The translations under genes were made by a program, and so were the position numbers. This document shows, piece after piece, positions 37,187 to 40,914 of a stretch of DNA of 64,000 nucleotides. Numbering within the stretch: the stretch's first letter is position 1; each line of letters opens with the position of its first letter. The notes below the pieces were generated by a model, which was not told the DNA's origin, searched no databases, and saw nothing but the letters and a program-made list of their open reading frames with translations. The stretch comes from Oxalobacteraceae bacterium (lineage in GTDB: Bacteria > Pseudomonadota > Gammaproteobacteria > Burkholderiales > Burkholderiaceae_D): positions 82,627 through 146,626 of the forward strand of contig CANFLV010000007.1 in the NCBI GenBank assembly GCA_947448025.1, given 5' to 3'.

Positions 37187-37654
37187 TTAGCGAACCCCTG
37201 GAATGCCGTCGATATGACTGCCGGCTTTGAAACCCTTCTGCTTGAACCAGCCAAGATTCATCTCCAGCGCAAAGCGAACATCCTTGACTGCGCAATGCGA
37301 CTCGGTCGTTTGCGGCTTCATGTCTTCGATATTCACGATTGTGCCACTATCATCGATAAAGGCCACGGATAATGGTAGCAAGGTATTCTTCATCCACATA
37401 CATACGCCATTGGGGCGCGGGAAAATGAACAGCATGCCGTCATTGTTGGCCATCTTTTCACGAAACATCAAGCCTTGCTGGCGCTCCGCGTCAGTCGCAG
37501 CGACTTCTGCCTGAATCACATGCATGCCGGCATTAAGTGCAGTCGTGCGAAAGCGCGTGATTTGCTGCGCCTGTGCAGTACTTGCTAAAAAAATAATGCT
37601 GGCAATGCCAAATTGCGCGCATCGAGCTAACGCGGTAGCAGAAAATTTTGTCAT
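37187..37654 (-). CDS. DUF192 family exported protein
   Basis: AEVAATDAERQQGLMFREKMANNDGMLFIFPRPNGVCMWMKNTLLPLSVAFID; start at ATG 37654. Confidence 0.88.
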   Translation of the reverse strand: MTKFSATALARCAQFGIASIIFLASTAQAQQITRFRTTALNAGMHVIQAEVAATDAERQQGLMFREKMANNDGMLFIFPRPNGVCMWMKNTLLPLSVAFIDDSGTIVNIEDMKPQTTESHCAVKDVRFALEMNLGWFKQKGFKAGSHIDGIPGVR

Positions 37655-37704: not shown

Positions 37705-37732
37705 AAAAAAGGCAGGACAGGCCTGCCTTTTG
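37705..37732 (-). terminator. Terminator-like hairpin downstream of the 37750-37914 gene
   Basis: AAAAGGCAGG-acagg-CCTGCCTTTT. Confidence 0.7.
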
Positions 37733-37749
37733 TAATCTTGAAACGGAAA

Positions 37750-37914
37750 TTATTTTGAAGCAGAAGCAGATGCCGCAGCCGCTTTGGCTGAGGCCGATGC
37801 TGATGCAGATGCTTTAGCCGAAGCAGATGCCGAAGCCGGTGCAGACATGTGGGAGCCAGCAAATGCAGACGCAACAAACAGGCAAGCACTCAGGGCAGCG
37901 ATCAAGTTTTTCAT
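37750..37914 (-). CDS. Small exported Ala/Ser-rich protein (missing from ORF track)
   Basis: Manual translation MKNLIAALSACLFVASAFAGSHMSAPASASASAKASASASASAKAAAASASASK*; paralogous N-terminus to 38152-38343. Confidence 0.75.
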   Translation of the reverse strand: MKNLIAALSACLFVASAFAGSHMSAPASASASAKASASASASAKAAAASASASK

Positions 37915-38103
37915 TATGCAGTTCTCCAGATTATTGTTATAAGATTTGATGATTCGGTTGAATCATTGACACAAACGTCTGTGTGCGTTGGTGGTTGACA
38001 ACTATTTGATGTTTCATCCAAAAACAAATTCGCCGGGCTCAGGGCGATCAATTTCATCGGAATGCGGGTTTTATTCAAACCGGACAAGATGCGAGAGACG
38101 AAA

Positions 38104-38130
38104 AAAAAGGCAGGTGAACACTGCCTTTTT
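38104..38130 (-). terminator. Terminator-like hairpin downstream of the 38152-38343 gene
   Basis: AAAAAGGCAG-gtgaaca-CTGCCTTTTT; T-rich on the minus strand. Confidence 0.75.
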
Positions 38131-38151
38131 GATACTGGGAAGCAAGAATAA

Positions 38152-38343
38152 TTATTTCATTGCTGCAGCAGTTGTTTTCGACTTCTTGGATTTTTTTGCT
38201 TTTTTGGTTTTTTTTGCTTTTGGTGCTTCAGCAGCAGTTGTAGCGCCAGGTGTCAAGACTGGAGCAGGAGCAGCCATGTGGCTACCAGCGAATGCGGAAA
38301 CAGCGAACAGACCAGCAACCAGCGCAGCGATCAGATTTTTCAT
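38152..38343 (-). CDS. Small exported Lys/Ala-rich protein
   Basis: 63 aa MKNLIAALVAGLFAVSAFAGSHMAAPAPVLTPGATTAAEAPKAKKTKKAKKSKKSKTTAAAMK. Confidence 0.75.
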   Translation of the reverse strand: MKNLIAALVAGLFAVSAFAGSHMAAPAPVLTPGATTAAEAPKAKKTKKAKKSKKSKTTAAAMK

Positions 38344-38605
38344 TTTTTCAGTCTTTCAAAATAGCATGTTGGGTAAGAGTACGATTCTCGTGAATCACTG
38401 CGAATAACGGTGTCGAACGCCAGTGGTTGACAGCAGACTCTTAAATAAACAAGACATGCCGCAATTCAGCGCTCTAACCTTTTTGATTATACAATTTGCC
38501 GTAAGCGATAAGAAACAATTATCAGAAACTTATTAGCAATAAAGTTTTAATTCATGGTTTGCCAAGCCTGGCCGACTACCCTTGCCGTCTCAAATAGGTT
38601 TGTCG

Positions 38606-39793
38606 ATGCGCTTTGCAATTCATGGTCTAACGTTTTTATTGTCAGCGATCTGCGCTTCGGGCCAGCTGATGGCCGCAGCTTATGTACCCAAGTCAGACGC
38701 GCAAGTGCTCGAACGCCTGCCATTCAAGCCCTCCGATCCGGTCGCCCGCGAGCTCGGCCAACTCCGTTCAGAATTACAGCGCTCACCGCAAAATCGCGAG
38801 CTGGCGGTGCAACTTGCGCGCCGATATTACGACATGGTCGCTGAAGAGGGGGATCCGCGCTATCTTGGCTATGCCCAGGCGGCACTGGCGCCATGGTGGG
38901 AAATGCCAACGCCTCCGACCGACGTGCAAGTCATCCGCGCCAGCCTGCGCCAATTCCAGCATGACTTTGATGGCGCTCTGAGCGACCTCGGTCAAGTCCT
39001 TGAGCGCGAGCCGCAAAATGCGCGTGCGCTTATCCTGCGGGCGATCATACATATTGTCCAGGCGCGTTACGAGCAGGGTCGCAGTGATTGCCGTTCCTTG
39101 CGTGGCGGCGATACTGAGCTACTCAGTCTTGGCTGTGAAGCGGTGATCGACGGCCTCACTGGCAAGGCTACCGCTGCTTATACTGGCTTGAAAGCAGCCT
39201 ATGAAGCGCGACCAGCCGTGTCGACAGATGAAAAACTCTGGATCCAGCTACGACTGGCTGAGCTGTCACAACGGCGAGGGCGGCTCGATTTGGCCGAAAT
39301 TCATTTTAAGAAAGCGTTGGAGCTTGGTGTCAGCGAAACTTTTTTATTGGCGAACTATGCTGATTTGCTACTCGATTTGAAGCGGCCGGCCGAAGTCGTC
39401 GCCTTGCTCAAAGATAAGGTGCGCTCAGATGGCCTTTTGCTGCGCCTGGCCTTTGCCGAGCGTGCGCTGAATCTACCCACTGCTGGGGAGCGGGAAGCGG
39501 CACTCGCCGCTCGCTATGGTGCGGCACAACTGCGCGGCGACACCGTGCATCAGCAAGAGGAAGCGCGCTTCGCCTTACAAGTCCAGCGTGATCCGAAAAA
39601 ATCCTTATGGCTGTCGCAGCAAAACTGGAAAGTCCAGCGTGAGCCGCGCGATGCGCGTGGATTTCTGGAAGCGGCGATCGCTGCGAAAGATCCGCAAGCA
39701 GCGCAGCCCGTGCTGGAATGGCTGGCACAAAGCCACATCGAAGATCCGCTGTTAATCGGCTTGGGTCAGCAATTGAAAGGCGGTGCCAAATGA
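38606..39793 (+). CDS. Exported TPR-repeat protein
   Basis: Signal-like N-terminus MRFAIHGLTFLLSAICASGQLMAAA; helical TPR-like repeats (GALSDLGQVLEREPQNARALILRA; GRLDLAEIHFKKALELG). Confidence 0.75.
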   Translation: MRFAIHGLTFLLSAICASGQLMAAAYVPKSDAQVLERLPFKPSDPVARELGQLRSELQRSPQNRELAVQLARRYYDMVAEEGDPRYLGYAQAALAPWWEMPTPPTDVQVIRASLRQFQHDFDGALSDLGQVLEREPQNARALILRAIIHIVQARYEQGRSDCRSLRGGDTELLSLGCEAVIDGLTGKATAAYTGLKAAYEARPAVSTDEKLWIQLRLAELSQRRGRLDLAEIHFKKALELGVSETFLLANYADLLLDLKRPAEVVALLKDKVRSDGLLLRLAFAERALNLPTAGEREAALAARYGAAQLRGDTVHQQEEARFALQVQRDPKKSLWLSQQNWKVQREPRDARGFLEAAIAAKDPQAAQPVLEWLAQSHIEDPLLIGLGQQLKGGAK

Positions 39794-40914
39794 AGCGCCT
39801 GCTTTTGCTGGTCGCCAGCCTGCTGATTTTTTCGACTGCGCAGGCGCACAAACCCAGCGACAGTTACCTTAACTTGAGCGTCAACGATAAAGTTGTCACC
39901 GGGCAGTGGGATATTGCTCTGCGCGACCTCGATTTCGCGCTGGGTCTTGATGCGAACGGCGACGCCGAAATTACCTGGGCTGAAGTTAAAGCGAAGCACA
40001 AGGACATCGCCGCCTATGCCTTCGCCCGCTTGCAATTGTCCACCGGCGACAAAGTCTGTCCGGTCGTGGTCACCGAACACCTGATAGACGATCACACCGA
40101 TGGTGCCTATGCCGTCATGCGCTTCAAGGCCGAATGTCCGGAACGCATCGCCAAACTGCAGGCGCGTTACAGCCTGTTCCATGAGATCGATCCGCAACAC
40201 AAAGGTTTGCTGCGCCTGGAGTATCAGGGTGCCTCGAATGCGGCGATTTTCAGCCCGCAAAGCGCGACCCAGGAATTCACACTGGCAGAACCCGACAAGG
40301 TCGGGCAATTCCTCGATTATGGCCGTGAAGGTGTCTGGCACATCTGGATCGGCTTTGACCACATTCTGTTCCTGCTGGCCTTGCTGCTGCCGGCCGTCGT
40401 CGTGCGTGAAGACAAAGCATGGCAAGGCGTCGTTGCTTTCCGTCCGGCTTTTTGGTCGGTCTTGCGGATTGTGACGGCATTCACGCTGGCGCATTCCATC
40501 ACCCTGACACTGGCGACCCTCGGTGTGCTCAGCTTGCCATCACGCTGGGTCGAGTCGACGATCGCCGCATCGGTCGTGATCGCGGCCTTGAATAATGTTT
40601 ATCCGATTTTCCGTGAGCGGCGCTGGATGATGGCCTTCCTGTTCGGCCTGATACATGGCTTTGGTTTTGCGAGCGTGCTGGCCGATCTGGGCTTGCCGCG
40701 CGATGCGCTGATATTGGCGCTGGTCGGTTTCAATCTCGGTGTTGAGACCGGACAACTCGCCATCGTGGCAGCCTTCCTGCCCGTCGCCTTCCTGCTGCGC
40801 CACACGACGTTTTATCGGCGACTGGTTCTCATTGGCGGTTCGCTCCTGATCGCCTTGCTCGCCAGTGTCTGGCTGGCAGAACGCTTGTTCGATCTGAAGT
40901 TATTGACGGTCTGA
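39790..40914 (+). CDS. HupE/UreJ_2-type membrane protein
   Basis: Signal peptide; [46 protein letters not shown]; overlaps the TPR gene by ATGA. Confidence 0.85.

Follow-up and report, generated by a model that had tools for sequence, protein, structure and literature searches.

Tandem cassettes for small, predicted exported proteins in an Oxalobacteraceae genome as the probable output of a SigAb-type ECF envelope-stress system

The analysis described here reveals that the window, the whole stretch of 64,000 nucleotides of Oxalobacteraceae DNA that was analyzed, carries two small genes (copy 1 and copy 2) forming a tandem pair with a common signal peptide, promoter, leader, and terminator layout (Table 1). 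We propose, with a probability of roughly 0.6, that these cassettes are the output side of an envelope-stress system governed by an ECF sigma factor of the SigAb type, their products being exported, disordered, and mostly basic proteins similar to Asr. What is new here is that nearly every cassette of this kind starts with GTCAAC-N16/17-CGTT, followed by a short inverted repeat in which changes in one arm are matched by changes in the other.

Table 1 Features of the two cassettes and their downstream neighbor in the window.
Feature	Position	Strand	Basis or remark
Copy 1 -35 element, GTCAAC	38426..38431	(-)	identical to the SigAb -35 (PMC12153292)
Copy 1 -10 element, CGTT	38406..38409	(-)	16-nt spacer
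Copy 1 leader inverted repeat, GATTC-ACGA-GAATC	38383..38396	(-)	at the expected mRNA 5' end
Copy 1 gene, 63-aa predicted exported protein	38152..38343	(-)	signal peptide MKNLIAALVAGLFAVSAFA and Lys-rich, family-typical tail
Copy 1 intrinsic terminator, AAAAAGGCAG...CTGCCTTTTT	38104..38130	(-)	hairpin fold
Copy 2 -35 element, GTCAAC	37994..37999	(-)	motif match
Copy 2 -10 element, CGTT	37974..37977	(-)	16-nt spacer
Copy 2 leader inverted repeat, GATTC-AACC-GAATC	37951..37964	(-)	minimum-energy fold
Copy 2 gene, 54-aa predicted exported protein	37750..37914	(-)	Ala/Ser-rich tail, lysine-poor family outlier
Copy 2 intrinsic terminator, AAAAGGCAGG...CCTGCCTTTT	37707..37731	(-)	hairpin fold
DUF192 gene	37187..37654	(-)	PF02643, E 3e-33; conserved downstream neighbor of the cassette

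Both reading frames named by an earlier sequence-only reading of this DNA are intact at their positions, and the N-terminal block that it took to be common to them, ATGAARAAYYTSATCGCTGCNYT, starts these two proteins only, occurring exactly twice in a scan of the whole window against 0.01 expected by chance. In each copy the elements follow the same order, namely GTCAAC, 16 nt, CGTT, nine nt, GATTC-N4-GAATC, 36–39 nt, ATG, and a GGCAG/CTGCC terminator. The hairpins said to end both genes are borne out, being followed by T's and folding at -11.2 and -13.4 kcal/mol (z -4.6 and -3.6), and the promoter said to be shared proved to be an ECF-type -35/-10 pair with a 5' inverted repeat, a nature that had been missed.

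By sequence comparison, the two copies are no strain oddity and belong to a protein family found across Burkholderiaceae. Relatives were detected in 228 of 295 genomes of this bacterial family and in 38 of 44 sampled genera (protein search, E ≤ 0.1, weak individual matches included), so that the N-terminus, whose confinement to one strain had been named as grounds for abandoning the sequence-only reading, is in fact conserved beyond it. The family signal peptide follows the pattern MxxLIAALxAGLFAxSxFA, signal peptides of the members having been assigned by pattern or by eye rather than by a predictor. Among the 139 members collected, the medians are 72 aa, 21% Lys, 46% Ala, and a mature charge of about +8, with Trp, Tyr, Phe, Leu, Ile, and Cys close to zero and order-promoting residues at about 0%. 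The tails vary in sequence and keep this composition, which argues that the cargo, previously described as fast-evolving, does not evolve freely. In a sister genome (G001, an Oxalobacteraceae MAG) containing an equivalent tandem pair, codons 1–19 of copy 1 show 10 silent differences from those in the window and not one replacement, a pattern hard to reconcile with a non-coding stretch.

Comparison with the family also alters the relation between the two copies, whose tails had been called unrelated. The Lys-rich tail of copy 1 is the family norm, whereas copy 2, with 8% Lys (the lowest among the 139 members) and a tail charge of only +3, is the outlier. Because copy 2 of G001, MNKLIAVLVTSLFAVSAFAGSHTKAPA..., retains lysine blocks (AKKEKAAKKDK), the Ala/Ser-rich copy 2 of the window has probably lost its own. 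Judged from these sequences, copy 1 is the conserved gene and copy 2 a derived exception, not one half of a matched pair.

None of the members could be assigned to a named protein family, and searches of Pfam, NCBIfam, and Rfam gave no convincing match for the window proteins or the leader. A tblastn search of plasmids with two members returned no match, perhaps owing to the low-complexity filter, and a profile search of the genome contigs with the first family alignment recovered two loci only. Publications on a named protein family, on ECF factors with DUF3106/DUF3619, on Burkholderia cenocepacia start sites, and on the copper response of Cupriavidus metallidurans held no direct data on the cassette genes. 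In other genera, two further groups stand behind the same promoter: repeat proteins of 100–160 aa of the KADVKADAK type, and His/Lys-rich proteins. Several paralogous genes with promoter, stem-loop, and signal peptide occur per genome in genus g28 (L194 and L198–L201 in G060, G129, G028, and G164), with stems of the CCTCAGG/CCTGAGG type and KADAK repeats; on this sequence evidence, the cassette is expanded into a multigene set in that genus.

Of 115 homologues collected, 113 are preceded by GTCAAC-N16/17-CGTT, the spacer always being 16 or 17 nt; as this set was gathered partly by the motif itself, an independent test is provided only by the 27 members that lack the strict motif and were mostly retrieved through protein similarity. 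Of these, 25 have the element pair against a shuffled rate of 0.0005. The strict block of promoter plus repeat occurs in 128 of 394 Burkholderiaceae genomes and 26 genera, counts that are not independent, many of the genomes being close relatives; the reversed control gave no match, and the block was found in none of about 290 genomes from other families of the order. Without exception, the 91 distinct strict sites in loci fetched from many genera precede a small gene encoding a signal peptide plus a low-complexity tail. The earlier proposal of one putative transcription/export cassette with variable cargo is thus supported in part, and well beyond this strain. In the window genome, the relaxed motif gave 16 matches against 11 for the reversed control, barely above it; the wide relaxed pattern produces many chance matches, repeatedly in the reversed control as well, and was used for leads only. 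GTCAAC-N17-CGTT was seen 50 nt upstream of two genes, one for a small cytochrome-c-like exported protein (L040, G000:C2:16877-16903) and one resembling PBP7/D-Ala-D-Ala endopeptidase genes (L041, G000:C5:68425-68451); both are possible further targets, the motif count for this genome lying within chance.

In Acinetobacter, copper stress is answered by the ECF sigma factor SigAb, whose promoter has been defined by mutagenesis as a core -35 GTCAAC and -10 CGTT, with a native spacer of 17 nt, 16 being tolerated and 18 weaker (PMC12153292). The cassette promoter is identical to it at -35, -10, and spacer, both window copies having the 16-nt form. Three ECF sigma factors (L055, L056, and L057) were found among 11 region-4 matches in the window genome. 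L055 is RpoE-like and L057 is present in 1 of 97 genomes, whereas L056, present in 179 of 196 genomes and 43 of 44 genera, is encoded elsewhere in the window genome (G000:C1) in one operon with following DUF3619 and DUF3106 genes. A tblastn search of the plasmid collection with L056 gave matches in A. baumannii records only. In CP040041.1, GTCAAC-N17-CGTT precedes the sigma gene, which is followed by genes for a 106-aa membrane protein and a DUF3106 protein, and we take this locus to be the published sigAb-aabA-aabB because the layout, the overlapping genes, and the 21-residue signal peptide agree. L056 shares 33% identity with the A. baumannii sigma factor over 176 aa (96 bits, against 48 bits for L055), as well as the -35 helix motif EGSVKTH.

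Beyond the promoter and the homologous ECF sigma factor, the SigAb-AabA-AabB system (PMC12153292) resembles the operon of L056 in gene order, with DUF3106 in third place; PF11304 (DUF3106) matches both third genes, their pairwise BLASTP score being weak (E 0.014) and their signal peptides recognized by eye. The systems differ in that AabA, a small single-helix anti-sigma factor, and the DUF3619 protein, which is of similar size and contains a hydrophobic segment, show no detectable sequence similarity and cannot be aligned, and in that small exported protein genes are not among the reported direct targets, which are sigAb, relA, and the putative sRNA SabS. SigAb is furthermore autoregulated (PMC12153292), whereas no GTCAAC-N15/18-CGTT, with up to one mismatch, was found in the 400 nt upstream of the window-genome sigma gene, so that a SigAb-type promoter before this operon, and with it the sign of autoregulation, is absent. 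Roughly 70–130 nt upstream of the sigma gene, many genera contain a conserved TTTTTTGCTAGCATGCGCACAGTTT stretch (L163–L192), which looks like a sigma-70-type promoter of the sigma-DUF3619-DUF3106 operon.

The missing motif upstream of the sigma operon favors an alternative in which the cassettes are transcribed by another sigma factor, either RpoE-like or sigma-70 with an activator, as for E. coli asr, the likeness to the SigAb promoter being convergent. The joint absence of sigma and cassette in genus g5 and in genome G101 agrees with control by L056, but their co-occurrence is only weakly significant (Fisher p 0.03) and clade-confounded, one clade dominating; the weakness of this association, too, is in favor of the alternative, as is a weak sigma-70-like site preceding copy 2, although one such site is within chance (1.5 expected). 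We nevertheless consider this alternative unlikely, since the SigAb promoter is not recognized by RpoE of E. coli (PMC12153292), both elements and the spacer are exactly identical, and the only other ECF factor in the window genome, L057, is not conserved. Homology and promoter identity together lead us to infer that L056 uses the cassette promoters.

Between the -10 element and the start codon lies the inverted repeat, for which two functions are conceivable. In 92 of 126 stems the arms are invariantly GATTC/GAATC, the commonest stem, at a fixed position right behind the -10 element, which would suit a DNA operator for a repressor or activator exerting the main control over the promoter. Yet there are 26 different 5-bp stems, with every kind of Watson-Crick pair at each position and including CCTCGGG/CCTGAGG-type stems with G-U pairs; the loops range from 3 to 10 nt and are not conserved in sequence; and GGTTC/GAATC, in four homologues, retains the pairing in RNA while breaking the symmetry in DNA. 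The last two observations in particular favor an RNA hairpin, the arms changing in compensation or tolerating G-U as expected for a stem-loop, and an operator of this kind seems rather improbable. For the 49 homologues lacking the strict repeat, the best stems score 13.3 on average, whereas the highest value in 200 shuffles was 10.3; most of the stems begin 7–12 nt past CGTT. The stems are weak, being only 5–6 bp long, and when the leaders are folded in isolation, the repeat stem is predicted for copy 2, while copy 1 has a different minimum-energy fold. We thus infer that the leader repeat acts as RNA. The 5'-terminal stem-loops of the ompA type, whose mRNA-stabilizing role has been reviewed (PMC7509114), are alike in that the stem lies about 7–12 nt past the -10 element and upstream of the ribosome site, and unlike in that the cassette stems are short and AU-rich.

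Given a short predicted transcript bounded by a 5' inverted repeat and a strong terminator, it could also be asked whether the RNA is the main product, that is, whether the cassettes encode short regulatory RNAs in which the small reading frame is secondary or part of a dual function. ECF regulons often include sRNAs, which speaks for this idea, as does the direct control by SigAb of SabS, a proposed regulatory RNA (PMC12153292). However, the silent changes in copy 1, the conservation of signal peptide and amino-acid composition across genera, and the variable leader loops, together with the lack of an Rfam match for the leader, make RNA as the main product very unlikely and point to the protein.

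As to what the proteins may do, Asr of E. coli (NF033636) is the closest described protein as judged by its look and a weak profile score. Asr, which work cited in PMC10746267 presents as a disordered periplasmic chaperone produced in large amounts upon acid stress, is likewise small, has a signal peptide, is rich in Ala, Pro, and Lys, and contains hardly any order-promoting residues; its promoter is of a different type from that of the cassette. Of 15 diverse members, 8 give some match to the NCBIfam Asr model (best E 4.3e-5), and copy 1 scores 12.8 bits (E 0.15), far below the curated cutoff of 50 bits and hence outside the Asr family. A likeness to LEA-like repeat proteins is seen in longer relatives behind the same promoter (genera g28, g31, g18, and others) with KADVKADAKVEKA-type repeats; a search with 15 diverse members at E ≤ 0.1 gave no Pfam LEA match, and LEA membership was rejected. 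One LEA-like relative of 157 aa in G001 (L007, G001:C6:58833) has GTCAAC-N17-CGTT and a CCTGT/ACAGG stem, and no match to it was found in the window genome. The signal peptide, the AKK repeats, and the median mature charge of about +8 would also fit exported cationic peptides acting outward, as antimicrobials or by binding DNA or matrix, instead of protecting the envelope; with no hydrophobic face in the nearly order-free chains, the low charge of the copy 2 tail, usually one copy per genome adjoining a DUF192 gene, and no immunity or transport gene seen adjoining the cassette, we regard such a role as improbable. An Asr-like role as bulk protectants under envelope stress is what the analogy suggests for the cassette proteins.

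The family gene usually stands directly upstream of a DUF192 gene, which is not itself part of the cassette; in 88 of 115 homologous loci, counted by motif, this neighbor shares the strand and lies no more than 1.3 kb away. Divergently oriented upstream of copy 1 is a gene for a 403-aa TPR protein (38582-39793, plus strand), followed by a reading frame for a HupE/UreJ-like membrane protein (39718-40914, by eye).

In the proposed mechanism, membrane or periplasmic stress would free the ECF sigma factor of the sigma-DUF3619-DUF3106 operon from its anti-sigma partners, and the freed factor would transcribe the cassettes from GTCAAC-N16-CGTT. The resulting mRNAs, carrying a 5' stem-loop that probably serves stability or 5'-end control, would terminate at the GGCAG/CTGCC hairpin. 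The 54–63-aa preproteins, which their signal peptide pattern marks as probably exported, would leave the cytoplasm by the Sec pathway. The mature chains, which are disordered and in all but copy 2 strongly basic, would be plentiful in the periplasm or on the cell surface and serve there as protectants like Asr.

SigAb has been described as Acinetobacter-specific (PMC12153292). We see even odds for the broader view that it is not, that nearly all Burkholderiaceae have a homologous ECF-DUF3619-DUF3106 system, and that the core output of this system there is the cassette protein family, exported, disordered, and mostly basic, with the same promoter and 5' stem-loop and with several genes in some genera. 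Through the cassette promoter, a protein family without a name can be connected, in a way open to testing, with a sigma-factor system that has been overlooked. If true, a promoter so far tied to Acinetobacter would extend to a different order, an ECF sigma factor conserved in a bacterial family with environmental, plant-associated, and clinical genera would gain a target, two DUF families (DUF3619 and DUF3106) would gain a function, and the unnamed tiny proteins, easily missed because they are short and of low complexity, would be assigned a role.
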